NCBI GenBank assembly: GCA_902604525.1
Contig: CACKYY010000006.1
Location: 1 to 64,000 of the forward strand
Origin: an uncultured Pelagibacteraceae bacterium
Lineage (GTDB): Bacteria > Pseudomonadota > Alphaproteobacteria > Pelagibacterales > Pelagibacteraceae
Reading direction: 5' to 3'
Length of the DNA: 64,000 nt
Shown here: piece by piece, positions 1 through 51,760 of the stretch
Layout: the number at the start of each line of letters is the position of its first letter
How positions within the stretch are numbered: position 1 is the stretch's first letter
Notes under the pieces: generated by a model
What the model saw: the letters and a program-made list of their open reading frames with translations, nothing else
What the model was told of the DNA's origin: nothing
Database searches by the model: none
Program-made: the position numbers and the translations under genes

Positions 1-209
1 ATAGTTTTAACTAATTTTTTAAATGAATTGTTGTTTTTAATATTGATTTTATTAGCTTTTGATAGCTTTCTTACTTTCTCAACTAATTTAAAAAACTTTA
101 TCCCTTCTTGATCTTTGATGACTTCACCAAGTAATGTTCCTAAATAACGGATATCTTCCCTAAGTAACTTTGTTGGTATTCTTTCATAGTAAAGATCTCT
201 TTTTTTCAT
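1..209 (-). CDS. ppc: phosphoenolpyruvate carboxylase, N-terminal part (cut by window edge)
   Basis: Only the first 69 codons lie in the window. Starting from the ATG at 209, the translation reads MKKRDLYYERIPTKLLREDI, followed by RYLGTLLGEVIKDQEG and a VEKVRKLSK stretch. This is the conserved N-terminal pattern of PEP carboxylase (LRxDxRxLGxLLGxVxxxQxG ... VExxRxLS). An in-frame TAG lies two codons upstream, so this ATG is the likely start. It overlaps the last 26 bp of the SMP-30 gene, which suggests co-transcription. The enzyme carboxylates PEP to oxaloacetate (anaplerosis). The catalytic region is outside the window, so intactness cannot be judged. Confidence 0.8.
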   Translation of the reverse strand, partial: MKKRDLYYERIPTKLLREDIRYLGTLLGEVIKDQEGIKFFKLVEKVRKLSKANKINIKNNNSFKKLVKT

Positions 210-1092
210 CAGCTAAAGTAAATTTTTTTTGTAAAAATCCCTTACAGTTTGTTTTTACACTAAATAAAGAACCAGAGTATCTAAATTTTCGCAATTCTGC
301 ACTGTTCATACCTTTGGTCGCTGTAGTCACAAAAAGTTCATTATTATTTTGGCCACCAAACATACAATTAGTAATATTTTTTGCTGGAAAATTTACTCTA
401 TGGATTAACTTTGCTTTTTGATTGAATACTGAAATACATGCACCACCATAATGTGCTACCCAAAGATTTTTATTTCTATCCAAAGTCATACCGTCTGGCG
501 AACCATCTTTAGTCAAAAATTTTTTAAAAACTTTTTTATTTATTATATTATTTTTACTATCAATTTTTATTTTATAAATTTTTTTTTTCGAACTATCTGT
601 ATGATAAAAGTTAAATTGGTTTAAAAATGCTGGTCCATTAGTAATTCTATATTTTTTATCCACACTTGTTAACTTTAAATTTTTATCTAATTTATATAAC
701 GAACCTCTTTCTAGTTTTCTTTCAAGGTTATCCATTGTTCCAAACCATAAGTTTCCAGCTGTATCGGTTTTACCATCATTAATTCTATTTAATTTTATTT
801 TAGATTCTATAGGAATAGTTTTAAAAATTTTTTTAGTCTTTAGATTTTGAATTCTGATTTCACCTTGTAATCCTAATACAAAAATATTATTTTTTATATG
901 TGCAAGAAATCCTATTTCTTTATTTACTCTATAAATTTTCTTTTTATTTTTTTTAATGTTTAGAGAATTAATTGTTTTTTTTTTAATATCTACAAAATAA
1001 ATTGAATTATGATCTTTAACCCAAAGTGTTCCCTCTCCCAACTTTGATTTTAATTTCCATAAAATTTTCGGAGTTGATGTTTTAATTTTCAC
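184..1092 (-). CDS. SMP-30/gluconolactonase-family lactonase
   Basis: A 302-aa protein of the SMP-30/gluconolactonase/LRE beta-propeller family, which hydrolyses aldonolactones with a divalent metal. Family landmarks are visible: GEGTLW at 19-24 with the metal-ligand Glu20, RINDGK at about 103-108, TNGPAF near 151-156, and SPDGMTLD at about 198-205 with the catalytic/metal Asp200. It has no signal peptide, so it is probably cytoplasmic. It lies 6 bp downstream of an FAA hydrolase gene in a sugar-acid cassette, where it would open a sugar lactone to the aldonate. The substrate cannot be read from sequence; fuconolactone, arabinonolactone or gluconolactone are all possible. Confidence 0.85.
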   Translation of the reverse strand: MKIKTSTPKILWKLKSKLGEGTLWVKDHNSIYFVDIKKKTINSLNIKKNKKKIYRVNKEIGFLAHIKNNIFVLGLQGEIRIQNLKTKKIFKTIPIESKIKLNRINDGKTDTAGNLWFGTMDNLERKLERGSLYKLDKNLKLTSVDKKYRITNGPAFLNQFNFYHTDSSKKKIYKIKIDSKNNIINKKVFKKFLTKDGSPDGMTLDRNKNLWVAHYGGACISVFNQKAKLIHRVNFPAKNITNCMFGGQNNNELFVTTATKGMNSAELRKFRYSGSLFSVKTNCKGFLQKKFTLADEKKRSLL

Positions 1093-1098
1093 AGAAAA

Positions 1099-1941
1099 TT
1101 AGAGAGCAATAACTTTAGAGTTCTGCTCACCTAAATTTTCGACTGATAGTTTCATGGTATCTCCAGCTTTTAGAAACTGCTGAGGCTTCATACCCATACC
1201 TACGCCAGGGGGAGTTCCTGTTGTAATGATATCACCTGGTTGTAGAGACATATACTTGCTTAAATAGGACACGATAAAATTAACGTTAAATATCATAGTA
1301 CTCGTGTTTCCTCTTTGCATTTTATTTCCATTAACATCCAAACTCATGTTTAAATTATTAACATCTGAGATTTCATCTTTTGTAACCAAGTATGGTCCAA
1401 TTGGTCCATAAGTATCATGAGATTTTCCTTTGACCCATTGACCCATTTTTTCTAATTGCCACTCTCTTTCACTAATATCATTTACTAAACAATATCCTAA
1501 AATATGGTCTTGAGATTGATTTTCAGATATGTGCTTGGTCTCTTTTCCAATAATAATTCCTAGCTCAACTTCCCAATCAAGTTTTTTTGATCCAGATACA
1601 ATTTCTATTTCATCGTTTGGACCATTGATGCAGCTTGTAGCTTTCATAAATACTATTGGTTCAGATGGTGCTTCCGCTCCTGTTTCTGCTGCATGGTCAG
1701 AAAAATTTAATCCTATTGCAATAAATTTTCCTGGCTTAGTTATACATGATCCAATTCTTTCGTCAGCTGATATTTCTGGTAGTGATGAAAGATCTGTACC
1801 TTTTAATTTTGAAATAGTATCAAAATTTAAATGATGAGGATTTAAATCTTTTATGTGAGAGCTGATGTCTCTTATTTTGCCATCTTTATCTAAAACGGCA
1901 GGCTTTTCTTTTCCTTTTTGTCCTACTCTTAATAATTTCAT
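1099..1941 (-). CDS. fumarylacetoacetate hydrolase-family protein (diketo-deoxy-sugar-acid hydrolase type)
   Basis: A 280-aa FAA-hydrolase-fold protein. The metal site motif DWEVEL lies at 122-127 (Glu124, Glu126) with Asp155 in VNDISERE, and the family signature GDIITTGTPPGVG is near the C-terminus. The N-terminal MKLLRVG opening and overall length resemble enzymes annotated as 2,4-diketo-3-deoxy-L-fuconate hydrolase or acylpyruvase. A clear Shine-Dalgarno (GGAGA) precedes the ATG. It sits between an SDR dehydrogenase and a lactonase. The inferred role is C-C cleavage of a 2,4-diketo-3-deoxy acid to pyruvate and a short hydroxy acid. The exact substrate is inferred from context only. Confidence 0.85.
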   Translation of the reverse strand: MKLLRVGQKGKEKPAVLDKDGKIRDISSHIKDLNPHHLNFDTISKLKGTDLSSLPEISADERIGSCITKPGKFIAIGLNFSDHAAETGAEAPSEPIVFMKATSCINGPNDEIEIVSGSKKLDWEVELGIIIGKETKHISENQSQDHILGYCLVNDISEREWQLEKMGQWVKGKSHDTYGPIGPYLVTKDEISDVNNLNMSLDVNGNKMQRGNTSTMIFNVNFIVSYLSKYMSLQPGDIITTGTPPGVGMGMKPQQFLKAGDTMKLSVENLGEQNSKVIAL

Positions 1942-1963
1942 AATTCTCCTTTTTGTTATTTAA

Positions 1964-2707
1964 TTATATTGAAATCCCACCATCAACCGAAATTGTTGTT
2001 CCAGTCGTAAATGTTGCATCGTCACTTGCCAAATAAACAGCTACTGCAGCTATTTCATCAGCTGTTCCTAATCTTCCCATTGGTTGTCTTGCTATAAAAT
2101 CTTTCTTAGCTTGAACAGGGTCCGGGCTTTGATTTACTCTATCTTGCCATGATGGAGAAAAAACTGTACCTGGTGCAATTGAATTACATCTTATGTTTTG
2201 TTTAACAAAATCAGCTGCTATAGATTTAGTTAACCCAATCACTGCACCTTTTGTAGTTCCATAAACAAATCTGTTTGGAAAACCTTTTAAGCTGGAAGCA
2301 CATGATGAAACATTAATAATACTTCCACCATTTTGTTTGACCATAAGTGGTAATATTGCTTTACACATGAAATACATAGACTTGACATTAACATTGCTAG
2401 AAAAATCCCAATCTTTTTCTTCACACTCAAGAATAGTTCCATGATGAACAAATCCTACAGCATTAAATAATACATCAACCTTATCTAAGGATTTTGTAAA
2501 ATCTAAAATTGCATTTTTATTAGTTGAATCCAATGTTTTCACATGGATATTTGGAAACTCTTTATTTAAATCAGTTAAGGTTTTATCATTTAAATCTGTT
2601 GCAATGACATTTGCACCTTCGTTATGAAATGCAATAGCGGTAGCTTTTCCTATTCCTTGTCCTGCAGCTGTAACAATAATTTTTTTACCCTCTAATCTTT
2701 TACTCAT
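1964..2707 (-). CDS. short-chain dehydrogenase/reductase (2-keto-3-deoxy-L-fuconate dehydrogenase-like)
   Basis: A 247-aa classical SDR. The Rossmann motif TAAGQGIG is at 13-20, the active-site Ser is in INVSSC (about 134), and YxxxK is Y149-K153. Family knowledge: this subgroup (near DHRS6/BDH2 and bacterial 2-keto-3-deoxy-L-fuconate dehydrogenase) oxidises the C4 hydroxyl of 2-keto-3-deoxy sugar acids or 3-hydroxyacids. The gene overlaps the upstream beta-hydroxyacid dehydrogenase by 4 bp and is followed by the FAA hydrolase. That order matches dehydrogenation followed by hydrolytic cleavage. The sugar specificity is inference. Confidence 0.85.
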   Translation of the reverse strand: MSKRLEGKKIIVTAAGQGIGKATAIAFHNEGANVIATDLNDKTLTDLNKEFPNIHVKTLDSTNKNAILDFTKSLDKVDVLFNAVGFVHHGTILECEEKDWDFSSNVNVKSMYFMCKAILPLMVKQNGGSIINVSSCASSLKGFPNRFVYGTTKGAVIGLTKSIAADFVKQNIRCNSIAPGTVFSPSWQDRVNQSPDPVQAKKDFIARQPMGRLGTADEIAAVAVYLASDDATFTTGTTISVDGGISI

Positions 2708-3573
2708 TTGTTGTTCATTCTTTCAATTTCCTTGTAAAGTGAACTATGGTCTTTGTTTCCATGACCATTTTCAACTAAGTTTTTATACATTTCTTTAACT
2801 AAATTTGAAATAGGTAAATGTGTATTAAAAGTATTTGCACATTCTATAATATTATTCATGTCCTTTAAATGTGTAGAAGTTTTGCCTTTTGGACTAAAAT
2901 CCTTATCAATCATTCTTTTTCCGTGAGTTTGTAAAACTTTGCTATCTGCCCATCCACCTGATAATGCGCTGATCATTTTATTTGGGTCTGCACCTGCCTT
3001 TTCACATAATGTTATAGCTTCAGCTACTGCCCCTATTGTCAAACCAACTATAATTTGATTTGCCAACTTAGATACTTGTCCACTTCCAACAGGACCAACT
3101 AATGTAGGATTGCCCATAGTTTTTAAAAGATCTTCGACTTCCTTGAAAACTTTTTTTTCTCCTCCAATCATGATGGCAAGAGAACCCTCTTCTGCACCTA
3201 TTGTGCCCCCTGAAACTGGAGCGTCTAAATATTTAATTTTTTTAAAACTTAAATTTTTTTCATGCTTTTTCGCAGTTATTGGTTTAATTGAACTCATATC
3301 GATCACTATTGATCCGGGTTTTAAATTGTTCAGGAAATTTAAACTACCCATAACTTCGTCAATAGCATCATCATCAGTCAACATTGTTATTATAATTTCG
3401 CTATCTTTAACGAGTTCACTTAATGTTATTGCAATTTCAGCACCAAATTCATCTAATGCCTTAACTTTAGATAATGTCCTATTAAATGCTTTTAATTTAT
3501 ATCCAGATTTAAGTATATTTTTTGCCATTGGAAACCCCATCAAACCAGTTCCAATAAAACCAATTTTTTTCAT
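2704..3573 (-). CDS. NAD(P)-dependent beta-hydroxyacid dehydrogenase (3-hydroxyisobutyrate / tartronate-semialdehyde type)
   Basis: A 289-aa enzyme of the 3-hydroxyisobutyrate/2-hydroxy-3-oxopropionate reductase family. The dinucleotide-binding motif GFIGTGLMG is at 5-13, the substrate-binding signature DAPVSGG at 117-123, and the catalytic Lys169 is in GSGQVSKLAN. It is the first gene of the leftward cassette and shares ATGA with the SDR gene. It could reduce tartronate semialdehyde to glycerate or oxidise a 3-hydroxyacid. Substrate specificity cannot be assigned from sequence. Confidence 0.88.
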   Translation of the reverse strand: MKKIGFIGTGLMGFPMAKNILKSGYKLKAFNRTLSKVKALDEFGAEIAITLSELVKDSEIIITMLTDDDAIDEVMGSLNFLNNLKPGSIVIDMSSIKPITAKKHEKNLSFKKIKYLDAPVSGGTIGAEEGSLAIMIGGEKKVFKEVEDLLKTMGNPTLVGPVGSGQVSKLANQIIVGLTIGAVAEAITLCEKAGADPNKMISALSGGWADSKVLQTHGKRMIDKDFSPKGKTSTHLKDMNNIIECANTFNTHLPISNLVKEMYKNLVENGHGNKDHSSLYKEIERMNNK

Positions 3574-3696
3574 TTCTAAGATTTATCTCCAACAGAACAG
3601 TTAGATGACGCCAAAATTGTCATTATGATTTAAAACTATTAGATTACACATAAATTTATTATATAACTTATATTTTAAACAAACCAATAATTTTAA
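3574..3696. promoter_or_regulatory. divergent promoter region of the sugar-acid cassette
   Basis: A 123-bp AT-rich spacer between the leftward dehydrogenase gene and the rightward IlvD/Edd dehydratase gene. It must hold both promoters. The TATATAAC-like stretch around 3660 is a possible -10 region. No clear operator palindrome was found. Confidence 0.4.
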
Positions 3697-5481
3697 ATGC
3701 CTGAAAAAAGAAAAACAAAATTGAGAAGTGATCAGTGGTTTAACAATCCAAAAAATCCTGACATGACCGCATTGTATTTAGAAAAGTATATGAATTATGG
3801 TCTTAAAAGAAAAGACTTACAATCTGGGAAACCAATAATAGGTATAGCTCAATCAGGTAGCGACCTCTCACCTTGTAATAGACATTTTTTATCATTAAGT
3901 AAAAAAATTAAGGACGGAATAAAAAAAGCTGGAGGTATCCCAATGGAATTTCCAACTCATCCAATACAAGAAACTGGCAAAAGACCTACGGCAATGCTAG
4001 ATAGAAATTTATCTTATTTGTCATTAGTAGAAGTTCTGTATGGATATCCAATTGATGGAGTAATTTTAACAACTGGCTGTGATAAAACCACACCTGCTGC
4101 TTTAATGGCAGCTGCAACTGTAAATATTCCTGCGATTGTTTTATCTGGTGGTCCAATGCTAGATGGTTTTTATAAAGGTAAATTGGCAGGATCTGGCACA
4201 ATAATTTGGGAAGCTCGAAAGTTACTAGCAAAAGGTAAAATCAATTATGATGAGTTTATGGATATGGCTGCATCCTCAGCACCAAGTGTTGGTCATTGTA
4301 ATACAATGGGTACTGCTTCCTCTATGAATTCTGTTGCAGAGGCCTTAGGTATGTCTTTGCCTGGATGTGCAATCATACCTGCCCCATATAAAGAAAGAAA
4401 ACAAATTTCATTTGAAACAGGAAAAAGAATTGTTGATATGGTTCATGAAAATCTAACACCATCAAAAATTATGACCAGGAAAGCTTTTGAAAATGCAGTT
4501 GTTGTTGCCAGTGCAATTGGAGGATCAAGTAACTGTACAACACATTTGAGTGCAATAGCAAAGCATATGGGGATTAAGTTTAATTTATCTGATTGGCAAA
4601 AATTAGGTCATAATATTCCTTTACTTGTAAACTGTCAGCCAGCAGGTGAATATTTAATGGAAAGTTTTTTTAGTTCTGGAGGGGTTCCTGCAGTTATGAA
4701 AGAATTAATTAAAAATAAAAAAATTCATACAAATCTATTGACTGTGACTGGTAAGAATATTGCTCAGAATCTAAGAAAAAAAATAAAGGTAAATCCTAAT
4801 GTCATAAAAACTTTCAAAAATGCTCTTGCAGATAAAGCAGGATTTTTAGTAATGAGAAGCAACTTTTTCTCTACAGCTATAATGAAAACATCAGTAATAA
4901 GCAAAGAATTTAGAGACCGATATCTTACAAATCCCAAGCATCCAAACGTTTTTAATGGAAGAGCAGTCGTTTTTGAAGGACCAGAAGACTATCATAAACG
5001 ACTGAATAGTAGAAAATTAAATATTGATGAAAATTCAGTTTTAATTGTAAGAGGATGTGGGCCAGTAGGTTATCCTGGTTCAGCAGAAGTAATTAATATG
5101 CAACCACCTGATAGATTATTAAAAAAAGGGATTAACACATTACCAACACTTGGTGATGGAAGACAAAGCGGTACATCTGCAAGTCCATCAATTCTTCATG
5201 TATCACCTGAATCTGCTGTTGGAGGTGATTTAGGTATTGTTAAAACTGGTGACAAAATAAAAATAGATTTAAACAGAAGAAGAGTAGATTTATTAATCTC
5301 ACAATCAGAATTTAAAAATAGAAGAAAAAAAAGAAAAAAGTTTAAAATTAATAACCAAACACCTTGGCAAGAAATTTTTAGAGATACTGTAGGTCAACTT
5401 GAAGATGGTGCTTGTATTAAATCACGAGGTATTTATTTAAAAGTATCTACTTCAAAAGGTATTCCTAGAGACTCTCACTAA
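3697..5481 (+). CDS. IlvD/Edd-family sugar-acid dehydratase (L-arabonate/L-fuconate dehydratase-like)
   Basis: A 594-aa full-length dehydratase of the IlvD/Edd family. Three Fe-S ligand cysteines are in the expected places: C60 in SPCNRH, C128 in TTGCDKTTPA, and C201 in GHCNTMGTASSM. This arrangement is typical of [2Fe-2S] dehydratases. The opening (RSDQWF...) and the GDGRQSGTSASPSILH motif resemble pentonate/aldonate dehydratases rather than the dihydroxyacid dehydratase IlvD of valine synthesis. Diverging from the lactonase/FAA/SDR genes, it probably converts an aldonate to the 2-keto-3-deoxy acid. No strong Shine-Dalgarno precedes the ATG. Confidence 0.85.
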   Translation: MPEKRKTKLRSDQWFNNPKNPDMTALYLEKYMNYGLKRKDLQSGKPIIGIAQSGSDLSPCNRHFLSLSKKIKDGIKKAGGIPMEFPTHPIQETGKRPTAMLDRNLSYLSLVEVLYGYPIDGVILTTGCDKTTPAALMAAATVNIPAIVLSGGPMLDGFYKGKLAGSGTIIWEARKLLAKGKINYDEFMDMAASSAPSVGHCNTMGTASSMNSVAEALGMSLPGCAIIPAPYKERKQISFETGKRIVDMVHENLTPSKIMTRKAFENAVVVASAIGGSSNCTTHLSAIAKHMGIKFNLSDWQKLGHNIPLLVNCQPAGEYLMESFFSSGGVPAVMKELIKNKKIHTNLLTVTGKNIAQNLRKKIKVNPNVIKTFKNALADKAGFLVMRSNFFSTAIMKTSVISKEFRDRYLTNPKHPNVFNGRAVVFEGPEDYHKRLNSRKLNIDENSVLIVRGCGPVGYPGSAEVINMQPPDRLLKKGINTLPTLGDGRQSGTSASPSILHVSPESAVGGDLGIVKTGDKIKIDLNRRRVDLLISQSEFKNRRKKRKKFKINNQTPWQEIFRDTVGQLEDGACIKSRGIYLKVSTSKGIPRDSH

Positions 5482-5806: not shown

Positions 5807-6337
5807 TTAATTAACAGATTTTAAAATTTCTAGTGGAAGTGGTGCTTCTGGATACTTTTTTTGACATAATTTTTCATATGTTTCACAAAAACCCATAATT
5901 ATCTTTAATACTGAATCTTGTTTTGAATTTTCTTTAATTATTAATTTAGATATTAAATTATTACGCATTTTTTCTAATTCTTTAATTTGTTCTCCCGTAA
6001 AAAACTCACCGGTTTCTATCTCCCAATAAGTATTATCCAGTTCTTCATCGCTTAATTTGTTTAATTTATTTTGTAGTTCAATTATTGTTGGATCATCAGT
6101 TTGCTTATTTCTCATTGGCGAATTTTTTAACTTTCCAAGACATTTATCTTTTAGTCCTTCAATAAAATGATCGTAAGGTTTTCCTTCTGCCAAATCTCTA
6201 AAATGATTGCTACTAAAATATTTATTTATAGCTAGCTCAGTTGAAACTTTTTCTTTGCCTTTAATTACAGCTATTTGAACGTAGATTTCCTGACCAATAT
6301 ATTCCTCAAGATGGTTTTTTACTTTATGTGGAATCAC
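5807..6337 (-). CDS. hypothetical protein, 176 aa
   Basis: The family is not recognised. The reading frame opens with GTG 11 nt after the stop of the cytochrome c' gene and runs 176 codons. The protein looks soluble, without signal peptide or membrane segments, and is charged, with probable helices at about 95-145 (LNKLSDEELDN..., IKELEKMRNN). Four cysteines are scattered and form no CxxC motif. The short spacing indicates co-transcription with the cytochrome gene. The GTG start lacks a clear Shine-Dalgarno, so the N-terminus is uncertain. Confidence 0.65.
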   Translation of the reverse strand: MIPHKVKNHLEEYIGQEIYVQIAVIKGKEKVSTELAINKYFSSNHFRDLAEGKPYDHFIEGLKDKCLGKLKNSPMRNKQTDDPTIIELQNKLNKLSDEELDNTYWEIETGEFFTGEQIKELEKMRNNLISKLIIKENSKQDSVLKIIMGFCETYEKLCQKKYPEAPLPLEILKSVN

Positions 6338-6348
6338 TGCTTTAAAAA

Positions 6349-6816
6349 TTAATGAGGCATTCGGTATTTGCTATGACATGCTTTACAGCTGCTCCACATA
6401 AATTCTCGAAGAGTAGCTCGAATATCATCACTATCTTCGATCACTGAAGTCAGTTTTATCATATTATCTGATGATTTTTGCATCAAAGCGTTAAAAGCTT
6501 CTTTTTCTTCCCAAATTAAAGGCAAGGATTCTGTTTTAAATCCCTCTTTGGTATTTTCAGGAAATAGTCCTATTAATGTTTTATAATTTTCACTCATTTC
6601 AATCATTAACTCTTTTGCTTTATCAAAGTCCCCATTTGAGGATAAAGCTTGGACACGCTTCGCTGTACTATAATTCTTACTAAACAGGGCTTTTCTTCCT
6701 TTAATAATTTCTTCTACAGACTGATCAGCAATACTTTGAGTTCCAACTAATGTAAAAAAAAGAGACAACAAAACTATACCAAAGCAACTAGTTATATGTT
6801 TTACTAAAGTATGCAT
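6349..6816 (-). CDS. cytochrome c'-type (class II) periplasmic cytochrome
   Basis: A 155-aa protein with an N-terminal signal peptide (hydrophobic core about 8-24, likely cleavage after SIA-30). A single haem-binding CKACH (C144, C147, H148) sits near the C-terminus, the hallmark of class II cytochromes c (c'/c556). The middle is helical, as expected for a four-helix bundle. It is a periplasmic electron carrier or gas-binding haem protein. The gene is divergent from a cytochrome b561 gene, and the two start codons lie in the same ATGCAT hexamer. Confidence 0.85.
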   Translation of the reverse strand: MHTLVKHITSCFGIVLLSLFFTLVGTQSIADQSVEEIIKGRKALFSKNYSTAKRVQALSSNGDFDKAKELMIEMSENYKTLIGLFPENTKEGFKTESLPLIWEEKEAFNALMQKSSDNMIKLTSVIEDSDDIRATLREFMWSSCKACHSKYRMPH

Positions 6817-7338
6817 GTTAAAAATACCTTAACAGAGTATGGTATTATTTCAAAGCTGTTACATTGGCTTAGTGCAATATTATTACTAATCCAAATTCCT
6901 CTTGGTTTTTATTTAGTTGATCTTGATTTTGGGGAAGAAAGATTAAGTATAGAAAACATTCATATTATAATCGGACTATCAATATTTTACTTGGTTATTA
7001 TAAGATTACTGAACAAAATTTTTAACCCCACACCAAAATTAGATCCAAGCATTTTTAAAGGTCAAAAATTTATAGCTAAATTAAATCATATTCTTTTATA
7101 TGTGGCAATTTTATCAATAACCATTTCGGGTATTTTAAAAAAATTATTTAATGGTGAAACATTGGTGATATTTTTTAAAGAGATTAAAATTCAAGATAAC
7201 TATGTATTAGCTGATCAATTTTATAATATTCATATATTTTCTAATTATACAATTATAGCTTTAATTTCCCTCCATATTTCTGCTGTCATAATTCATAAGC
7301 TATTTTTTAATGAGAATTTGTTAAAAAAAATTCTCTAA
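6811..7338 (+). CDS. cytochrome b561-family membrane protein
   Basis: A 175-aa four-helix membrane protein with the b561/YodB pattern. It opens with SKLLHWLSAILLLIQIPLGFYL (haem-ligand His near residue 18), has His/Asn in NIHIIIGLSIFYLVI, LNHILLYVAIL in the third helix, and ISLHISAVIIHK in the last helix. It probably shuttles electrons between quinone and a periplasmic partner. The divergent cytochrome c' gene makes that protein a candidate partner. The start ATG is the first half of the palindrome ATGCAT shared with the opposite gene. Confidence 0.82.
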   Translation: MHVKNTLTEYGIISKLLHWLSAILLLIQIPLGFYLVDLDFGEERLSIENIHIIIGLSIFYLVIIRLLNKIFNPTPKLDPSIFKGQKFIAKLNHILLYVAILSITISGILKKLFNGETLVIFFKEIKIQDNYVLADQFYNIHIFSNYTIIALISLHISAVIIHKLFFNENLLKKIL

Positions 7339-7343
7339 AATAT

Positions 7344-7781
7344 TTAGTGACAATTAATTCCAAACTTTTTTAATCTCCAGTAATTATAAGGCCATGGAGT
7401 TAAAAAACCCACAATCAGCATAATAGGTACAACCCACCAGGTTAGAATTGCACCACCAGTTAAAATATAATCTGTTGAATTCATCATAATTTCCATACTA
7501 AGCATTGAAATTAAACTCATACCTGATGCTGTTTTTACTGCTCCATTAAATGAGAAACCTTGACGTATTAAAATTATAGTCTCTAATATTATACTTGTGA
7601 TTAGTCCATTTATAATCGCTAAAATCATTATGCCTAACAGTGGAAAAGGTATTTTAGTTAATTGAAAAAATAATATAGTTCCAAAATCACCGATAGCGCA
7701 ACCTAACAAACACCAACCAGTGTTTTTTGCACTTCTTTTCCAAGTGTGTTTACATGCCCAATGAAATGTGGAGCTAATCAT
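7344..7781 (-). CDS. DUF4396-family membrane protein
   Basis: Chosen start is the ATG at 7781, giving 145 aa (MISSTFHWACKHTWKRSAKN). The longer frame to 7829 would overlap the divergent hydrolase gene. The protein has about four hydrophobic segments and the motif NTGWCLLGCAIGD near the N-terminus. This resembles the C.xGCAIG pattern of DUF4396 membrane proteins, which often sit near redox or metal genes. Its function is unknown. The cysteine pair in the first helix could bind a metal; this is inference. Confidence 0.7.
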   Translation of the reverse strand: MISSTFHWACKHTWKRSAKNTGWCLLGCAIGDFGTILFFQLTKIPFPLLGIMILAIINGLITSIILETIILIRQGFSFNGAVKTASGMSLISMLSMEIMMNSTDYILTGGAILTWWVVPIMLIVGFLTPWPYNYWRLKKFGINCH

Positions 7782-7803
7782 AATTATTTGATAATAATAA
7801 AAA

Positions 7804-8487
7804 ATGATTTTTAAACAACTGTTTGACACAAAATCTTCAACATATACTTATCTAATAGCTTCGGCAAAAGGTCGCGAAGCAATCATTATAGATCCAGTTT
7901 TAGAAAATGTTGATGAATATATAGATCATTTAAAAGAACTCGATTTAAAACTAGTGAAAGTAATAGATACTCATATTCATGCTGATCACATTACTGGTGC
8001 CTCAAAATTAAAAAGCAATACAAATTGTACAACAATTATGGGAGAACATTCTCCTGCTGAAACTGTAGACATCAAACTTAAAGATGATGAAATAATTGAA
8101 ATAGACCAATTAAAAATCAGATCAATGTATACCCCTGGTCATACTTCAGATAGTTACAGTTTTTTAATGGATAAATATTTATTCTCTGGTGATACTCTTT
8201 TAATTAATGGGACTGGGAGAACCGATTTTCAAAATGGTAGCTCTAAAGATGCTTATTATTCTCTTTTTCACAAATTATTAAAATTACCTGAGGAAACAAT
8301 TCTTTATCCTGGTCATGATTATAATGGAAAAAAATCTAGTACTATAGGCAAAGAAAAAGAGCATAACCCAAGACTTCAAGTAGAAAATATAGATCAATAT
8401 ATTGAAATTATGTCTAATTTAAATTTATCAAAACCAAAGATGATAGATCATAATATTTCTAGAAATCTAAAGCTAGGAAATGTTTAG
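7804..8487 (+). CDS. metallo-beta-lactamase-fold hydrolase, persulfide dioxygenase (ETHE1)-like
   Basis: A 227-aa MBL-fold protein. The metal site THIHADH (H57, H59, D61, H62) is followed by TPGHT (H113), FSGDTLL (D130) and YPGHDY (H171). The GRTDFQNG segment after the second motif is typical of the ETHE1/persulfide dioxygenase branch rather than glyoxalase II. It would oxidise glutathione persulfide to sulfite, relevant to sulfur detoxification from DMSP-, thiol- or sulfide-derived sulfur. It is divergent from the DUF4396 gene. Confidence 0.82.
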   Translation: MIFKQLFDTKSSTYTYLIASAKGREAIIIDPVLENVDEYIDHLKELDLKLVKVIDTHIHADHITGASKLKSNTNCTTIMGEHSPAETVDIKLKDDEIIEIDQLKIRSMYTPGHTSDSYSFLMDKYLFSGDTLLINGTGRTDFQNGSSKDAYYSLFHKLLKLPEETILYPGHDYNGKKSSTIGKEKEHNPRLQVENIDQYIEIMSNLNLSKPKMIDHNISRNLKLGNV

Positions 8488-8514
8488 TTATGCCCCTTTT
8501 AAAAAGAGGCATAA
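8488..8514 (+). terminator. hairpin terminator between convergent genes
   Basis: TTATGCC pairs with GGCATAA and the inner CTTTT with AAAAG, with one mismatch. The hairpin begins directly at the stop codon of the MBL hydrolase gene. There is no long U-tract. The remaining spacer to 8661 is AT-rich with three GTTAAC-containing stretches but no recognised gene. Confidence 0.5.
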
Positions 8515-8661
8515 GTTATAAATAACAAGAGAGATAATTAATCAAAAATAAATATGAATTCTTTAATTAATTAATTCACTTTTACAGTTAACAGAGATTT
8601 TTAATAACTATATTTGATCAAAACAGCTATGCGTTAACTGGGGTTAACAGAATGACAGTAG

Positions 8662-8979
8662 TTAAGACAAAAAAACAAATATGATTATCCAATAAGATAA
8701 AAGGCCAGAGAATATAGTTGCAATAACATTTTTTGAAAAATAACCAACTATAATTGCAACTAAAGCTCCAAATATTTTAGGATCATTCATTTCTATATAA
8801 GCTCCATAATCATTAATAAATATTGCAGGAAATATAATTGCAGGAAATACTGCAGATGGAACATAAGCTAAAACAGCTTTAATTTTTTCACCAAGAAGAT
8901 CTCTTCTAACTAGAGCAATCATAGTCATTCTGGTAAAATAAGTTAATATTCCAGCAATTGTAATTGATAGCCAAGTCAT
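8662..8979 (-). CDS. azlD: AzlD-family branched-chain amino acid exporter subunit
   Basis: A 105-aa protein with three to four membrane helices and the typical AzlD opening MTWLSITIAGILTYFTRM, followed by a VRRDLLGEKIKAVLAYVPSAVFPAI-type segment. AzlD pairs with AzlC to export branched-chain or related amino acids. The gene overlaps azlC by 4 bp (ATGA), so the two are translationally coupled. It is the last gene of a leftward run. Full family length. Confidence 0.88.
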   Translation of the reverse strand: MTWLSITIAGILTYFTRMTMIALVRRDLLGEKIKAVLAYVPSAVFPAIIFPAIFINDYGAYIEMNDPKIFGALVAIIVGYFSKNVIATIFSGLLSYWIIIFVFLS

Positions 8980-9662
8980 TTTTTTAACCTCAATAATAAT
9001 GCTGCAACGAATAAAGCAATAACAGGCGAAATAAGAATATAAGATTTAAATGGTGCTTCAAAAAATAATAAAGAACTAATACCGCAAACAAGCATTACAA
9101 TTACGTGATCCAATTTTTTTAAATCTTGAACAACAATTGCAATAAAAGTTAAGGGAATTGCAAATTTTAATCCAAGCTCTTCGGGAACAAATGAACCTAA
9201 TATTATCCCTGCAAGAGTTGCTATTTGCCAGCAAATCCAGAGTGTGCCTCCAGTACCAATTAAATGGTAATGCAAATATTCCTCTGTTTTATTTTTTTTA
9301 AAAAATTTATTAGACTCAGCAAACCCTTGATCTACTACAAAATAGGAAATTAAAAGCTTCTTAATAAAAGATAATTTTTCTAGATATTCAGATATAACAG
9401 CTCCATATAACAAATGTCTTGAATTGATTACACCTACTGAGGTAACGGCTACTATTGATGAAGCTCCACCCGATAACAATTGTAAAAATACAATTTGTGA
9501 TGCGCCACCAAAAATAATAATAGACATTGCATAGACTAAATATGGATTAAAACCGAGTTCAACACCAATTGCTCCACAAATTATACCAAATGGAATTACT
9601 GAAAGCATATGGGGAGCAACATCAATCATCCCTCTCATAAAAAGTTGTTTTTTTGATAGCAT
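8976..9662 (-). CDS. azlC: AzlC-family branched-chain amino acid exporter, large subunit
   Basis: A 228-aa polytopic inner-membrane protein. It has the AzlC pattern MRGMIDVAPHMLSVIPFGIICGAIGVELG and the FGGASQIVFLQLLSGG motif, followed by SRHLLYGA. With AzlD it forms an amino-acid efflux pair. It starts 14 bp after the iron ABC ATPase gene on the same strand. That could mean read-through from the iron operon, although no functional link is known. Confidence 0.9.
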   Translation of the reverse strand: MLSKKQLFMRGMIDVAPHMLSVIPFGIICGAIGVELGFNPYLVYAMSIIIFGGASQIVFLQLLSGGASSIVAVTSVGVINSRHLLYGAVISEYLEKLSFIKKLLISYFVVDQGFAESNKFFKKNKTEEYLHYHLIGTGGTLWICWQIATLAGIILGSFVPEELGLKFAIPLTFIAIVVQDLKKLDHVIVMLVCGISSLLFFEAPFKSYILISPVIALFVAALLLRLKK

Positions 9663-9676
9663 TTATTTTGTTTGTA

Positions 9677-10738
9677 TTAAAAACAAACTATATGATCAAT
9701 ATTAATTGGTCTTTTAATGCCAAATTTTTCATCAACTTCATGCTGGTGTACGTGATGAGAATGAACAAAAACAGGGATCAATAAATCACTATTAGTCTTT
9801 AAAGTATAAATAAAATTTGTACCTCTAAATTTTCTATCAACAACCTCTAACTTAAGATTACTTCGATCATCATGCTCGAGATCTTCTGGTTGTAATAACA
9901 ATTGTACATCTGAACCTTTTGGATAATGTTTTATAAAATTACCTTTAATTGTTCCTAAATCTTTATTTTCTAGCGAATTTTCACCTGTTACTTTAGCTGG
10001 AATTAATATCCCTCTATTTAAAAAATTTACTACTTCAACAGAGTTCGGGAAATGGTAAACATTATAAGGATCATCAAACTGCTTTATCTGGCCATCTAAA
10101 ATAATAGCACATTTATTTCCTAAATAAAAAGCCTCATAGGAGTCATGAGTAACTATTATCGTTGTAATTTTTAATCTGCTTAGTATTTTTTTTAATCTTA
10201 CTTGAATTTCCTCTTTAAAACTTTGATCAACATTTGATAGAGGTTCATCTAACAACAAAAGATCAGGTTGAGTTAATAGAGATCTTGCAAGAGAAGCTCT
10301 TTGTGCCTCACCTGCACTTATTTCATGAGGATATTTATGTAATATTTTTGAGATATCTAGAAATTCAATTATTTCTTTAAAACTTATTTTCTTTCTTCTT
10401 TTTCCTTTATTTTTCTCTGCGCCTAACAGTATATTTTTTTCAACAGTGTAATGTGGAAACAGACTATTATCCTGAAAAGCTAAGGATATATTCCTAAGCT
10501 CAGGTTCAATATTTTCTTTTTTAGATGATAACAATTTACCATTTAATTTGATTGATCCTTTATCAATTTTTTCTAATCCAGCTATTGTTCTAAGTATAGT
10601 TGTTTTCCCAATACCTGATGGACCAAGAATACACAAGGTTTCGCCCTCGTTTTCAATGTTAAAAGAGGCATTCTTAACCTTAGTTTTACCACCAATGGTA
10701 AAATCAACGTTTTTAATTTCTAAAAAATTTTTAATCAT
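9677..10738 (-). CDS. fbpC: iron(III) ABC transporter ATP-binding protein
   Basis: A 353-aa ABC ATPase. Walker A GPSGIGKTT is at 39-47, the Q-loop follows in LAFQDN, the signature SAGEAQR is at 140-146, and Walker B LLLLDEP is at 159-165 with the switch His in VTHDSYEA. A C-terminal extension (about 250-353) resembles the TOBE/regulatory region of FbpC/PotA-type ATPases. It energises import of ferric iron. It overlaps the permease gene by 4 bp. Other family names are SfuC and AfuC. Confidence 0.88.
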   Translation of the reverse strand: MIKNFLEIKNVDFTIGGKTKVKNASFNIENEGETLCILGPSGIGKTTILRTIAGLEKIDKGSIKLNGKLLSSKKENIEPELRNISLAFQDNSLFPHYTVEKNILLGAEKNKGKRRKKISFKEIIEFLDISKILHKYPHEISAGEAQRASLARSLLTQPDLLLLDEPLSNVDQSFKEEIQVRLKKILSRLKITTIIVTHDSYEAFYLGNKCAIILDGQIKQFDDPYNVYHFPNSVEVVNFLNRGILIPAKVTGENSLENKDLGTIKGNFIKHYPKGSDVQLLLQPEDLEHDDRSNLKLEVVDRKFRGTNFIYTLKTNSDLLIPVFVHSHHVHQHEVDEKFGIKRPINIDHIVCF

Positions 10739-12357
10739 TTTTCTCTCAGAATATATTTAGATGTAAGCATAATAAATGCAGTTGCAATTAAAATTAAAAA
10801 TAATGAAGGTGCAGCAGCAGCCTCAAGTAAATCCTCAGATGCAGAAATATAAGCAGTTGTTGCAAATGTTTCAAAGTTAAAAGGCCTTAAAATTAATGTA
10901 ATTGGAAGCTCTCTGATTATTTCAAGAGAAATTAATATTACAACAAACAAGAGTGAGTTTCTTAAATATGGAACATGAATATTCATAAATGTTTTCTGTT
11001 TTGAATAACCAAGAAGATAAGAACTTTCATCGACAGAGATATTAATTTTTTCATATCCAGATTTTATTCCATTAAATGCCAAAGAATAAAATCTTATAAA
11101 ATAAACAAGAACTAAACCAAGGATAGATCCTATAAACACTTTTTTTATAGATAATAGGCCTAGGGCCTGAACAATATTTTCATCAAACCATGCTATAAAG
11201 GTTATAAATGCTACTGCTAAAATGACTCCAGGAATTGCGTAACCAGAAATAGATAGAGTAGATAAAATATTTAATACTTTGTTTTTTGACACTCGGTTTC
11301 CATAATTTGAAATAAGAGAAAAAATTATTAAAACTGAGCTTGATAAAAATACTAAATAAATTGTATTTAAAGTGAGAGTAACAACTTGAAGATCAAAAAA
11401 GTTTTCAGGAAATTTGATAGTCCAATATAACATTTGACACAAAGGAAATAAAAAACTCAAAAAGAATAAAATAAAACAAGTAAAAAATGCAATAAGAGCA
11501 TTAGCTCCTGAAAGTTGTATTTTTTCTTTCTGTTTAAAGCCACCTTTTGTATTCGAGTGGTATCTTGCTTTTTTTCTAGATAAATTTTCTAAAATAAAAA
11601 GTGCAAATATAAATATTAAAAGAAAGAAAGATATCCTATTTGAAAAAGCTAAATCATCAAATGCTATCCAAGAATTATAAATTCCAGTTGTTAAAGTGTT
11701 GATTGAAAAAAAATCAACCGCCCCAAATTCTGCTAGAGTTTCCATCGCTACAAGAGATAAACCAGCCACTATAGCTGGCCTAGCCGCTGGTAAAATTAAA
11801 GAATAAAAAGATTTTAATTTTGAAAATCCTAAACTTCTTCCTAAATCAATTAAATTTTGAGATTGGTAAAGAAATGATGCTCTTGCAAGAATATATACAT
11901 AGGCAAATAAAGAAAAAGAAAGTGAAAGAACAGCTCCAAACAAACCATCAAATTTTGGGATATGCTGGTTGTAGTTTCCAGGTCCAAATAAATTTTTTAA
12001 AACAGAATATAGCGTTCCAAAATTCTCAAAAAAAGCTGTCAATGAATAAGCATAAATATAGGGAGGTACAGCGAAAGATAAAATCAGTGCCCATTTAAAA
12101 AAATTGCTAAGTGGAAATTTATAAAATGAAACTAAAAAAGCTGCACTGGTCCCAAATATAAAAGTTAGGACTAAAACACAAATTAGTAGAGTAAATGAAT
12201 TAAATATATATTCGAATAAAAAAGTATCTTTTAAAATTTGATAGTAATTAGAAGTATCCTCAAAAAAGCTAGAGAAAACAGTAATAATTGGGATCGCAAC
12301 AATAATAGAAATCAATAAAGAACTTAGAAACCAAAAATTAACTTTTCTTAAATACAT
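10735..12357 (-). CDS. fbpB: iron(III) ABC transporter permease (two-domain)
   Basis: A 540-aa membrane protein with about 12 helices and two permease-domain halves. Each half carries an EAA-type loop: LGRSLGFSKLKSFYSLILPAARPA in the first and LGYSKQKTFMNIHVPYLRNS in the second. This fused layout is typical of FbpB/SfuB ferric-iron permeases. It is separated from the substrate-binding gene by the 64-aa gene and a strong hairpin, which would lower permease expression relative to the binding protein. Confidence 0.9.
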   Translation of the reverse strand: MYLRKVNFWFLSSLLISIIVAIPIITVFSSFFEDTSNYYQILKDTFLFEYIFNSFTLLICVLVLTFIFGTSAAFLVSFYKFPLSNFFKWALILSFAVPPYIYAYSLTAFFENFGTLYSVLKNLFGPGNYNQHIPKFDGLFGAVLSLSFSLFAYVYILARASFLYQSQNLIDLGRSLGFSKLKSFYSLILPAARPAIVAGLSLVAMETLAEFGAVDFFSINTLTTGIYNSWIAFDDLAFSNRISFFLLIFIFALFILENLSRKKARYHSNTKGGFKQKEKIQLSGANALIAFFTCFILFFLSFLFPLCQMLYWTIKFPENFFDLQVVTLTLNTIYLVFLSSSVLIIFSLISNYGNRVSKNKVLNILSTLSISGYAIPGVILAVAFITFIAWFDENIVQALGLLSIKKVFIGSILGLVLVYFIRFYSLAFNGIKSGYEKINISVDESSYLLGYSKQKTFMNIHVPYLRNSLLFVVILISLEIIRELPITLILRPFNFETFATTAYISASEDLLEAAAAPSLFLILIATAFIMLTSKYILREK

Positions 12358-12635: not shown

Positions 12636-13664
12636 TTACTTCCAACCTGCTGCAGTCATTACTTCTAATGCTGCTGCTTGATTTTTTCCATAAGAAGCTA
12701 GTTTAGTTTTCATATCTTGTTGAAAATCTAATCCTAAATTATTTACCACTAATGGACTTGGTGAAACACCTTCAATCATTGGAAACTCAAATGTATTGTT
12801 TGTGAAATGCTCTTGAGACTCTGGAGTTAATAAAAACTCTACAAGTTTAACAGCATTACCTTTATTGGGTGCTCCTTTTACTAAAGCTGCACAACTAACA
12901 TTCATATGTGTTCCTCTGCCATTTTGATTAGGAAAGAAAGGTTTTACTTTTTTAGCTGCTTCTTGTTGCTCTGCACCTTTTTTACCAGATAACATCAGAG
13001 CTAAATAGTAAGTATTAGCTACTGCAATATCAGCTTCACCAGCTGCCACTGCCATAATTTGAGCTCTGTCATTTCCTTTTGAATCTCTAGCCATATTTGC
13101 AACAACTCCTTTTGCCCATTCGGCTGTAGCTTTTTTTCCATTATTCGCAATTAATGAAGCCACAAGAGATTTATTATAAATATTACTTGATTTTCTAATT
13201 ACTAATCTACCTTTCCATTTAGGATCAGCTAGACCTTCATAAGACATTCCAGATAATTCAGCACCAGTTACTCTTTCTGGTGAATAATAAATTATTCTAG
13301 CTCTTTTTGCTATTCCAACCCATTTATTTGTTCTAAAGCTTTTTGGAACAGCGGCTCTTATAGCTTTAGATGTTAAGCCTCTTTGAAGATGACCTTTTGC
13401 ATCCATGGCACCACATCTTCCAGCATCAGCTGTGATGTATAGGTCAGCAGATGAATCTGCACCTTCGCTAATGATTCTTTTCTCTAAAGCACCTGATTTA
13501 CCATTAATTAAATTTACTTTGATCCCTGTAGCTTTTGTGAATTTTCCATAAAGCTCAGCATCGGCTTTATAATGTCTTGCATTAAATATATTGACTTCGT
13601 CTGCAGCCAAAAAAACTGGGGCAAATAAAGTTAAAATTAATGTAAAAATGTATATTTTTCTCAC
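12636..13664 (-). CDS. fbpA: iron(III) ABC transporter substrate-binding protein
   Basis: Start chosen at GTG 13664: a Shine-Dalgarno AAGGAGA lies just upstream, and the product then begins with a proper signal peptide (VRKIYIFTLILTLFAPVFLA). This gives 342 aa; an upstream in-frame ATG would add 17 basic residues and run through the operator. The mature protein shows the ferric-binding-protein pattern (DEVNIFNARHYKAD at the N-terminus, and the adjacent tyrosines in AVANTYYLALM expected to bind iron). It acts in the periplasm. Tandem Fur-like boxes upstream indicate iron-dependent repression. Family synonyms: SfuA, AfuA, IdiA. Confidence 0.92.
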   Translation of the reverse strand: MRKIYIFTLILTLFAPVFLAADEVNIFNARHYKADAELYGKFTKATGIKVNLINGKSGALEKRIISEGADSSADLYITADAGRCGAMDAKGHLQRGLTSKAIRAAVPKSFRTNKWVGIAKRARIIYYSPERVTGAELSGMSYEGLADPKWKGRLVIRKSSNIYNKSLVASLIANNGKKATAEWAKGVVANMARDSKGNDRAQIMAVAAGEADIAVANTYYLALMLSGKKGAEQQEAAKKVKPFFPNQNGRGTHMNVSCAALVKGAPNKGNAVKLVEFLLTPESQEHFTNNTFEFPMIEGVSPSPLVVNNLGLDFQQDMKTKLASYGKNQAAALEVMTAAGWK

Positions 13665-45757: not shown

Positions 45758-47443
45758 ATGAGTGATGTTAAATCAGATATTCAAATAGCTCGAGAAGCAA
45801 AAATGCAGCCTATAAATGAGGTATTAGCAAAGATAAATGTTCCAGATGAAAGCACTGCTTTCAGTCCAATGGGACGACACATTGCAAAAATTAATCTAGA
45901 GTATTTAGACACATTGAAAGATAAACCAGAAGGGAAATTAATTTTAGTCACTGCAATTACACCTACACCTGCTGGAGAGGGAAAAACCACTACTTCAGTT
46001 GGTTTAAATGATGGATTAAATAAAATTGGAAAAAAATCTATAGTTTGTTTAAGAGAGCCAAGTCTTGGGCCTTCATTTGGAATGAAAGGTGGTGCTGCAG
46101 GAGGAGGTTATGCTCAAGTTGTTCCAATGGAACAAATTAATTTACATTTTACTGGAGATTTTCATGCAATTACTTCAGCTCATAATTTATTATCAGCATT
46201 AATCGACAATCATATCTATTGGGGAAACAAATTAGATATAGATGTAAGACGGATTGTTTGGAAAAGAGTAATGGATATGAACGACCGTTCCTTAAGATCA
46301 ATAAATATAAATTTAGGGGGAGTAGCAAATGGTTTTCCTAGAGAAGACGGATTTGATATTACTGTTGCTTCAGAAATCATGGCAATTTTCTGCTTATCAA
46401 ATGATTTGGACGATTTAGAAAAAAGAATTGGCAATATTACAATTGCTTATACAAGAGATAAGAAACCAGTTTACGCGAAAGACTTGAAAGCACATGGTCC
46501 AATGACTGTATTATTAAAAGATGCGATCAGACCAAATGTAACTCAAACATTAGAAAATAATCCAGCAATTATTCATGGTGGTCCTTTTGCAAATATTGCA
46601 CATGGATGTAACTCCGTTATAGCAACTAAAACTGGATTAAAACTTGCAGACTATGTTGTAACAGAAGCAGGTTTTGGTGCAGACCTTGGGGCAGAAAAGT
46701 TTTTAGATATTAAGTGCAGAAAATCTAATTTGAAACCGAGTTGTGTTGTCATCGTAGCAACAATTAGAGCTTTAAAAATGCATGGTGGTGTTGCAAAAGA
46801 TGACTTAAAAAATGAAAATGTTGATGCTTTAAAAAAAGGTCTAGTGAATCTTGAAAGACACATAGAAAACGTAAAAAAATTTGGATTACCTGTTGCGATC
46901 GCGGTTAATCATTTTATTAAAGATACAGATAGTGAAGTTAAAGCTTTAATTGATTTTTGTGAAAACTTAGGGGTTAAAGCAAGTTTATGTACTCACTGGG
47001 CAAATGGTGGTGAGGGGACAAAAGAATTAGCAGTACACGTCGCTGATTTGTGTGAAAAAAAAGATGTCAAGTTTAATTTTCTTTATGAAAGTAAAACACC
47101 TCTGTTTAAAAAGATTGAGACAATTGCAAAAGAAATTTATAGATCCGATGAAGTGATTGCTGATACAAAAATAAGAGATCAATTAAAAGGTTTTGAGGAG
47201 GCAGGCTATGGAGAATTGCCAATTTGTATAGCAAAAACACAATACAGTTTTTCAACTGATCCAAATCTTAAAGGTGCACCAACAGGCCATGTTTTGCCTG
47301 TAAGAGAAATAAGACTTTCGTCAGGTGCTGAATTTATTGTTGTTGTTTGTGGAGCAATTATGACTATGCCAGGACTACCTCGTGTCCCTGCAGCAGACTC
47401 TATAAAACTAAATGATAAGGGTGATATCGAAGGATTATTCTAA
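45758..47443 (+). CDS. fhs: formate--tetrahydrofolate ligase
   Basis: A 561-aa FTHFS. The P-loop [15 protein letters not shown] is at 68-82, followed by [41 protein letters not shown] and the C-terminal [11 protein letters not shown]. It interconverts formate and 10-formyl-THF with ATP. This is the standard outlet for methyl carbon oxidised from betaine, TMAO or methylamine in SAR11-type metabolism. It is divergent from the sox operon; its end overlaps the convergent amidotransferase gene by 9 bp. Confidence 0.97.
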
Positions 47444-48223
47444 ATTAAGGTAATTTAACCAATTTTCTAATTCCCTCATCCTAGAAATTTTATCAAGCTT
47501 CTTATTTTCACTTTCAATATGTTGTATGTGACTGTTAATTTCCTTCTCGTCACTAAAAGCTTCTTTTTTTAATAGCTTCTCTTTTCTAAAAACAATAATG
47601 TTAATCATTTTGTTATATGTAATTTCTGGATGATATTGAAGCCCCCAGATATCACAATCATTTACTTTAAAGTTTAAACCTTGAACTTTATTAATTGGAT
47701 TTGAAGCTAACAGTACAGAATTTTGTGGCATGGTAACTACTTCATCAAAATTAAAAGCAGGTGTATTAAATTTTTTTTTTTTATTTTTGTAAAGTGGATG
47801 ATCTAATCCCTTTTCATTTATTTCAATATCAACTGCAATTCCTTTATGTGAACCTTTAGTGCCTTTTTTGACCTCGCCTCCTGCAGCTGTGACAGCTACT
47901 TGCATACCCCAACATATTGCTAAGATTTTTTTAATTTTTTTTTGACATTCTTTCATAAACTGAATCTGTCTTCTAATTTCAGGAGTGTCGTTATAAATAT
48001 TTAAGCTACTACCACCCCAAATAAGTCCATCGTAACTGTTCAGATCGTCTATATTTTTAAATATATTTTCATCTGATGAAGGATTAACAACATCTGTAGT
48101 TAAATCTTTTGTGAAAAAACTAAGACTATCCCTCAAACTTTCAGTATGTGTTTGAATACCGGCAGATGAAAAATGTTGATTTTCTTCTCTCAAATTTCCT
48201 TCAACAATTAATATTTTTTTCAT
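47435..48223 (-). CDS. class I glutamine amidotransferase-family protein (GMP synthase-like)
   Basis: A 262-aa protein with a GATase class I domain: the nucleophile C104 in AICWGMQVA and the His/Glu of the triad in QYHPE (H198, E200). It lacks a synthetase domain. Homologues are annotated as GMP synthase-like amidotransferases or gamma-glutamyl hydrolases of unknown substrate. It overlaps the Fe-ADH gene by 1 bp, so the two are one transcript. A role in hydrolysing a gamma-glutamyl amide would fit the methylamine theme, but this is speculation. Confidence 0.85.
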
Positions 48224-49380: not shown

Positions 49381-49457
49381 AGTAAATAAAAATTTTATTT
49401 TTCTTTTTTTTGTAAGTAAGATATATTTATAGAATTATTAATGATAGGAAAATTTAG
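49381..49457. promoter_or_regulatory. divergent promoter region Fe-ADH / tmm
   Basis: A 77-bp spacer between divergent genes. It contains T-rich tracts and TATATTTATAGAAT, a plausible -10 area for tmm. No operator-like palindrome was recognised. Confidence 0.35.
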
Positions 49458-50789: not shown

Positions 50790-50792
50790 AAT

Positions 50793-51752: not shown

Positions 51753-51760
51753 AATAAAGA

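Follow-up and report, generated by a model that had tools for sequence, protein, structure and literature searches.

A SAR11 gene cassette that probably encodes the lower steps of sugar oxidation by the non-phosphorylative Route III

Oxidation of sugars by the non-phosphorylative Route III is known for L-fucose and pentoses from Herbaspirillum huttiense (excerpts of PMC6336799 and PMC11199699; the other articles given here by PMC number are likewise cited from excerpts). A 64,000-base stretch of DNA (the window) from an uncultured SAR11 bacterium (Pelagibacteraceae) carries at positions 184 to 5481 a gene cassette that resembles this system. As in the Route III of H. huttiense, a dehydratase, a 4-dehydrogenase of the short-chain dehydrogenase/reductase (SDR) family and a hydrolase of the FAH type would act in sequence, and as in the D-xylose route of the same bacterium, an IlvD/Edd dehydratase is combined with an SDR aldose dehydrogenase. 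While the H. huttiense genes are spread over several clusters, with Route II beside Route III, the four downstream genes of SAR11 lie together. Also unlike H. huttiense, the SAR11 cassette includes a tartronate-semialdehyde-reductase-like gene and is located next to a phosphoenolpyruvate (PEP) carboxylase gene, and its relatives are found with a glucose-type importer.

The Route III for L-rhamnose is another close system: the best solved relative of the SAR11 hydrolase is 8gsr (L-2,4-diketo-3-deoxyrhamnonate hydrolase; 301.5 bits, 50% identical), which we take to be of Sphingomonas origin. On the other hand, the same hydrolase failed the curated model for 2,4-didehydro-3-deoxy-L-rhamnonate hydrolase (NF053535; 390.3 bits, cut-off 500), and the best solved bacterial relatives of the SDR are L-2-keto-3-deoxyfuconate (L-KDF) 4-dehydrogenase entries. 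Caulobacter breaks down D-xylose by the Weimberg route. The second-best solved relative of the SAR11 dehydratase, 5oyn (58% identical), and the best one of the lactonase, 7plb (34% identical), are presumably the Caulobacter D-xylonate dehydratase and xylonolactonase, respectively, and D-xylose 1-dehydrogenase XylB (NF053674) is the top model for the aldose dehydrogenase encoded on another contig, C2, of the SAR11 genome. Unlike in the Weimberg route, an SDR and an FAH-type hydrolase would replace the last steps. The oxidation of L-fucose and L-rhamnose by SAR202, also a marine oligotroph, is non-phosphorylative as well, but 80 enolase-superfamily genes were assigned to those pathways (PMC10444878) whereas the SAR11 cassette has an IlvD/Edd dehydratase. 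The enzymes and Route III are already known from other bacteria. In a literature search that did not cover the 2010 paper on SAR11 glycolysis genes, we met neither a Route III for glucose in SAR11 nor SAR11 Route III genes linked to each other and to a glucose-type importer, and we claim no priority.

The cassette very probably belongs to a pathway of the non-phosphorylative Route III type, and we favor the reading that it encodes the lower part of that route, acting on a neutral aldose for which D-glucose and/or D-xylose are the likeliest candidates. The genome, G000, is a SAR11 genome of about 1.1 Mb (1,072,723 bases in 37 contigs, 82% complete). The first base of the window is also the first base of contig C6, so that the left side is cut off. 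The features are as follows.

184 to 1092, minus strand: SMP-30/gluconolactonase-family protein, probable aldonolactonase (302 amino acids, GTG start; Pfam SGL, 213.6 bits)
1099 to 1941, minus strand: FAH-superfamily hydrolase, probable 2,4-diketo-3-deoxy-aldonate hydrolase (280 amino acids; Pfam FAA_hydrolase, 233.3 bits)
1964 to 2707, minus strand: SDR, probable NAD-dependent 2-keto-3-deoxy-aldonate 4-dehydrogenase (247 amino acids; Pfam adh_short_C2, 194.6 bits)
2704 to 3573, minus strand: beta-hydroxyacid dehydrogenase of the tartronate-semialdehyde-reductase type, probably handling a hydroxy acid or semialdehyde (289 amino acids)
3574 to 3696, no strand: gap between divergent transcription units, presumed to hold the promoters (from the gene coordinates)
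3697 to 5481, plus strand: sugar-acid dehydratase, IlvD/Edd family (594 amino acids; Pfam ILVD_EDD_N/C, 363.0/156.9 bits)
1 to 209, minus strand: start of a PEP carboxylase gene in the flank (by translation; a full-length copy has the same place in locus L018 of a relative)

Four closely packed genes run leftward, the reductase-like one overlapping the SDR gene by 4 bases, and the dehydratase gene runs rightward beyond the 123-base gap. An earlier note on this DNA had named the SMP-30, FAA hydrolase, SDR and IlvD/Edd families; all four are present as open reading frames with Pfam scores far above the cut-offs, but the fifth gene, at 2704 to 3573 on the minus strand, was missing from its list.

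In the pathway that we propose, a neutral aldose would enter through the glucose-type ATP-binding cassette (ABC) importer of contig C2, and the D-xylose-dehydrogenase-like SDR of the same contig would oxidize it at C1 to a lactone, to be opened to the aldonate by the SMP-30 protein. The IlvD/Edd enzyme would dehydrate the aldonate to a 2-keto-3-deoxy acid, the window SDR would oxidize the C4 hydroxyl of this acid, in the furanose hemiketal form if it behaves like its Herbaspirillum counterpart, and the FAH-type hydrolase would cut the resulting 2,4-diketo acid to pyruvate and either D-glycerate (from glucose) or glycolate (from xylose); L-fucose as substrate would yield lactate. The tartronate-semialdehyde-reductase-like enzyme would act on D-glycerate. 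We infer each reaction, the substrate and the cooperation of contigs C2 and C6, while gene content, family signatures, co-occurrence and the finding of no KDPG/KHG (2-keto-3-deoxy-6-phosphogluconate/2-keto-4-hydroxyglutarate) aldolase are direct results.

The dehydratase passed the PRK13017 model (987.8 bits, curated cut-off 684) and failed the ilvD model TIGR00110 (394.5 bits, cut-off 618.15), which a separate gene on contig C4 passed with 684.4 bits. A branched-chain dihydroxy-acid dehydratase, the alternative named in the earlier note, is thus unlikely, and a role in branched-chain biosynthesis was rejected since the C4 gene fills it. The closest solved relative of the dehydratase, ahead of 5oyn, is 7m3k ('Galactonate dehydratase', 61% identical), and the protein has Cys60, Cys128 and Cys201, which we take to be the ligands of its iron-sulfur cluster. 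The hydrolase retains His83 and Glu86, the His-x-x-Glu dyad that has been named for the Herbaspirillum diketo-acid hydrolase C785_RS20550 (PMC6336799). The reductase-like protein belongs to the 3-hydroxyisobutyrate/tartronate-semialdehyde reductase family, with 4dll and 1vpd as best solved relatives; its best model, TIGR01505 (tartronate-semialdehyde reductase), gave 294.4 bits, below the cut-off of 340.75.

The best solved relatives of the window SDR are 2ag5 and 8xwk/8y11/8y4j, the nearest being human DHRS6/BDH2 and L-KDF 4-dehydrogenase. The type 1 pattern described for 2-keto-3-deoxyfuconate 4-dehydrogenases consists of R148, T183, R192 and R214 (PMC11199699). All 60 sequences of an alignment (55 distinct ones; the window protein, SAR11 relatives and 12 outgroup sequences) retain this carboxylate-binding R-T-R-R set as well as F211, Q215, V89 and the Ser-Tyr-Lys catalytic triad; the comparison leaves out positions 94 and 117 of PMC11199699, where the numbering does not match. 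A model of the SDR (predicted local distance difference test score, pLDDT, 79.8) superimposed on 8y46 with Z 33.3 and a root-mean-square deviation of 2.0 over 237 residues (49% identical), a fit that does not separate SDR families, as Z falls from 33.5 only to 31.0 across 50 rows. With the SDR signature and the hydrolase dyad, the chain from lactone through aldonate, 2-keto-3-deoxy acid and 2,4-diketo acid to pyruvate and a hydroxy acid, as put forward in the earlier note, is well supported. The Herbaspirillum SDR takes keto-deoxy acids with a 4(S)-hydroxyl, including the 2-keto-3-deoxy acids of the D-pentose (D-KDP) and D-gluconate (D-KDGlu) type (PMC11199699). The keto-deoxy acids derived from L-fucose, D-arabinose and L-galactose are also taken by this SDR family, and for this reason the three sugars are kept among the candidate substrates.

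Loci centered on the dehydratase were compared for the best 80 of 576 confirmed matches, 51 of them from SAR11. The SDR, hydrolase and lactonase genes lie beside the dehydratase gene in 41 of these 51, and the remaining 10 meet a contig edge within the stretch expected to hold the missing genes, which argues that this is no chance neighborhood. Nineteen of the 41 complete cassettes also have the aldose dehydrogenase, and 15 have both the dehydrogenase and the binding protein of the importer. In a first form of the locus (for example L019) the row consists of dehydratase, D-2-hydroxyacid dehydrogenase (best model glyoxylate reductase, 304.1 bits, cut-off 455), tripartite ATP-independent periplasmic (TRAP) transporter, reductase, SDR, hydrolase, enolase-superfamily enzyme and lactonase, with UxaA/GarD-type and EamA genes divergent from it. 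In a second form, without TRAP genes (L061, L066, and the left-truncated L062 and L063), an ABC sugar importer and the aldose dehydrogenase are followed by dehydratase, SDR, hydrolase and lactonase. Locus L148 (genome G024) holds importer, aldose dehydrogenase, aldose 1-epimerase and the cassette within 19.9 kb, a contig edge cutting the lactonase. A dehydratase gene divergent from the SDR gene, as in the window, was found among the complete cassettes only in L018, the nearest relative, whose dehydratase is 97% identical.

The earlier note had observed that the window has no dedicated sugar dehydrogenase or transporter, in agreement with whole-genome searches (E <= 1e-60), which place both on contig C2. 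ABC ATPase and permease genes without an assigned substrate lie at window positions 9677-12357. The aldose dehydrogenase gene (G000:C2:47306-48061), assigned by family, and the gene of the importer's binding protein (G000:C2:51001-52254) are 91% and 94% identical, respectively, to the copies in L021. Importer and dehydrogenase lie at 47306-52254 of this contig, and a comparison with L021 and other relatives indicates that the operon there further contains two genes for permeases and one each for an ATPase, a ROK kinase and another SDR. The dehydrogenase scored 303.8 bits with XylB, its top model, below the cut-off of 400, and 126.4 bits with the L-fucose dehydrogenase model NF052481 (cut-off 300), this being the one SDR of the genome compared. 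The binding protein shares 73% identity with 8hqq, the 'glucose-binding protein SAR11_0769' of Candidatus Pelagibacter ubique HTCC1062 bound to glucose; a second structure of the same protein, 8kd0, has galactose as ligand. The structural model of the binding protein is poor (pLDDT 46.3), and its relationship to 8hqq rests on sequence.

These two C2 proteins, together with the dehydratase relatives 7m3k and 5oyn, do not favor L-fucose, the substrate to which the earlier note had leaned. A Route III for L-fucose, D-arabinose or L-galactose, in which L-fuconate would be converted through L-KDF and the diketo acid to pyruvate and L-lactate (or glycolate or glycerate), would agree with the L-KDF 4-dehydrogenase kind of the window SDR, L-KDF being the best substrate of its characterized relative (PMC11199699), and with the UxaA/GarD-type gene found in 41 of the 51 loci, a class to which the D-arabinonate dehydratase described in PMC6336799 also belongs. 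We nevertheless consider it improbable, as the C2 aldose dehydrogenase, the one SDR compared, matched the D-xylose model much better than the L-fucose one, the binding protein is glucose-like, locus L018 of the window lineage has no UxaA-type gene, and Trp252, which in the Herbaspirillum SDR touches the C6 methyl of L-KDF (PMC11199699), is Ile in the window SDR.

Co-occurrence was determined in 101 genomes, many of them incomplete (G000 and 100 relatives; E <= 1e-120 for the dehydratase, E <= 1e-60 for the others), with Fisher tests that treat genomes as independent and ignore kinship. The dehydratase was found in 15 genomes, a distribution that could make the trait a marker of ecological differences. 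The aldose dehydrogenase and the importer binding protein were each found in 15 genomes as well, 13 of them shared with the dehydratase (1.3e-12 in both cases), the TRAP binding protein in 10, all with the dehydratase (1.6e-10), and the hydrolase in 29, of which 12 have the dehydratase (1.1e-5).

The company of TRAP binding protein and dehydratase (10 of 10 genomes) would fit a scavenging of sugar acids, in which aldonates or aldarates are imported ready-made, through the TRAP transporter in relatives, and the dehydratases feed the same SDR and hydrolase. TRAP genes are present in 41-42 of the 51 loci, with two further non-homologous dehydratase-type genes (in 41 and 37). But G000 has no close homologue of the TRAP binding protein in a whole-genome search at E <= 1e-60, it keeps a lactonase that a pure acid importer would find superfluous, and the TRAP protein is absent from 5 of the 15 dehydratase genomes, so that we hold scavenging to be quite improbable. 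The TRAP binding protein is found in 18 of the 24 loci with the aldose dehydrogenase. As an observation on L019 (8449-20405) and similar loci, three non-homologous genes of sugar-acid dehydratase type and a TRAP importer surround one SDR and one hydrolase; those beside IlvD/Edd are UxaA/GarD-like (41/51 loci) and of the enolase superfamily (37/51), and the enolase-type protein matches 5olc (288 bits) and 4ggb (287 bits), the next match having 204.

The one-contig genome G012 (locus L146, G012:C1:336000-355000) has open frames for dehydratase, SDR and hydrolase, while its aldose dehydrogenase and lactonase are each split over two frames (about 8520-9300 and 12705-13609), which may reflect decay or sequencing error. 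These breaks, and the position of importer and dehydrogenase away from the cassette in G000, could be taken as signs that the window lineage is losing or repurposing the cassette, which would then no longer form one pathway. Such a leftover is very improbable: all five window genes are open frames of usual length, the L018 dehydratase is 97% identical, G000 retains open frames for the dehydrogenase and the binding protein, and the breaks in G012 may be sequencing errors.

No member of the KDPG/KHG aldolase family (PF01081) was detected in any of the 101 genomes, including G000, or in the 22 that are at least 90% complete, while the control was positive in 8 of 14. Cleavage by that family is therefore not likely (the search covered PF01081 and no other aldolase families), and sugar breakdown may here proceed through Route III in its lower half. 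The result contrasts with mentions of an Entner-Doudoroff pathway in SAR11 (PMC12636525, PMC6018831). Phosphofructokinase is missing from SAR11 subclade Ia (PMC10308909), and isolates of subclade I depend on an external supply of glycine and serine (PMC10030771). Route III with a glucose-type importer, if true, would explain how some SAR11 without phosphofructokinase or KDPG aldolase use sugar. More specifically, we suggest, tentatively, that SAR11 lineages with the cassette convert D-glucose, imported by a SAR11_0769-type system and oxidized to gluconate, to pyruvate and D-glycerate by dehydration, C4 oxidation and hydrolysis, with no phosphorylated intermediate and no aldolase. This would be an unrecognized lower half of SAR11 sugar use, supplying pyruvate and a precursor of serine and glycine. 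D-Glycerate as the product from D-glucose would agree with the reductase-like gene and with the D-2-hydroxyacid dehydrogenase gene of relatives. As to enzymes that might act further on the hydroxy acid, glyoxylate carboligase gave three matches, all under the cut-off (best 350.4 of 711.2 bits), and GlcD, considered for glycolate from D-xylose, a single one on contig C5 (347.6 bits, cut-off 567.9), next to presumed aminotransferase and 2-hydroxyacid dehydrogenase frames.

Several results weigh against a Route III for D-glucose or D-xylose. The Herbaspirillum SDR handles D-KDGlu 105-fold and D-KDP 12-fold worse than L-KDF (PMC11199699), and the window SDR differs from it at two of the positions compared, from Trp252 to Ile (Ile in 29/60 and Met in 20/60 sequences) and from Leu189 to Trp (48/60). 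Two glycerate-kinase families had no matches in the 82%-complete G000. Four of the 41 complete cassettes, and the G012 cassette too, lack the reductase-like gene, so that the link of this gene to glycerate is loose. The aldose dehydrogenase and the binding protein are each absent from 2 of the 15 dehydratase genomes, and in G000 both lie away from the cassette, on contig C2, where a neighboring ROK sugar kinase could offer the sugar another fate. Finally, 17 of the 29 hydrolase genomes have no dehydratase; the hydrolase is 55-61% identical in 11 of these and 79-81% identical in 6, and the former 11 may do something else.

In L140 (8203-11865) and L142, which have no dehydratase, the hydrolase gene adjoins a reductase-like gene, a ROK kinase and an aldo/keto reductase (the latter scanned in L140), the group being located between a tripartite-tricarboxylate-type importer and PEP carboxylase. 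This arrangement is possibly a second use of the hydrolase, and together with the dehydratase-free genomes it suggests that hydrolase and reductase may have another role.

Outgroup loci were examined by tblastn. Among 29 of them, some short, an SDR at least 48% identical to that of the window was found in 22, the hydrolase in 8, and a second SDR similar to that of the C2 operon (at least 61%) in 11. In L077 (4428-17115, Ferrovibrio) the dehydratase gene lies beside a sugar importer and a 2-keto-3-deoxy-galactonokinase, and a separate trio of UxaA-type, SDR and hydrolase genes is found about 3-5 kb upstream. D-Galactonate, to which this locus had pointed, was rejected, its keto-deoxy acid being reckoned to have a 4(R)-hydroxyl that the characterized SDR would hardly take. 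Sulfoquinovose was also set aside. The XylB-like SDR resembles sulfoquinovose dehydrogenase 9gwu as well, and the UxaA superfamily includes sulfolactate lyase (PMC6336799), but the only model matched by the UxaA-type gene of the relatives was that for galactarate dehydratase (378.3 of 730.85 bits), in an analysis that did not search for sulfur-specific genes.

As to the surroundings of the cassette, its G+C content (31.2%) is like that of the rest of the window (31.4%), so that base composition gives no sign of recent arrival. The PEP carboxylase gene, next downstream of the lactonase gene, overlaps its end by 26 bases, and the full-length gene at this position in L018 scored 909.4 bits with PEPcase. 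To the right of the dehydratase, positions 5807-12357 encode among others a cytochrome c', a cytochrome b561, a metallo-hydrolase, AzlC and an ABC importer. Sixteen SAR11 loci have these genes on the other side of the dehydratase and inverted, the window order being common only to L018 and L064 among the loci listed; judging by these gene orders, the difference is a rearrangement between lineages.

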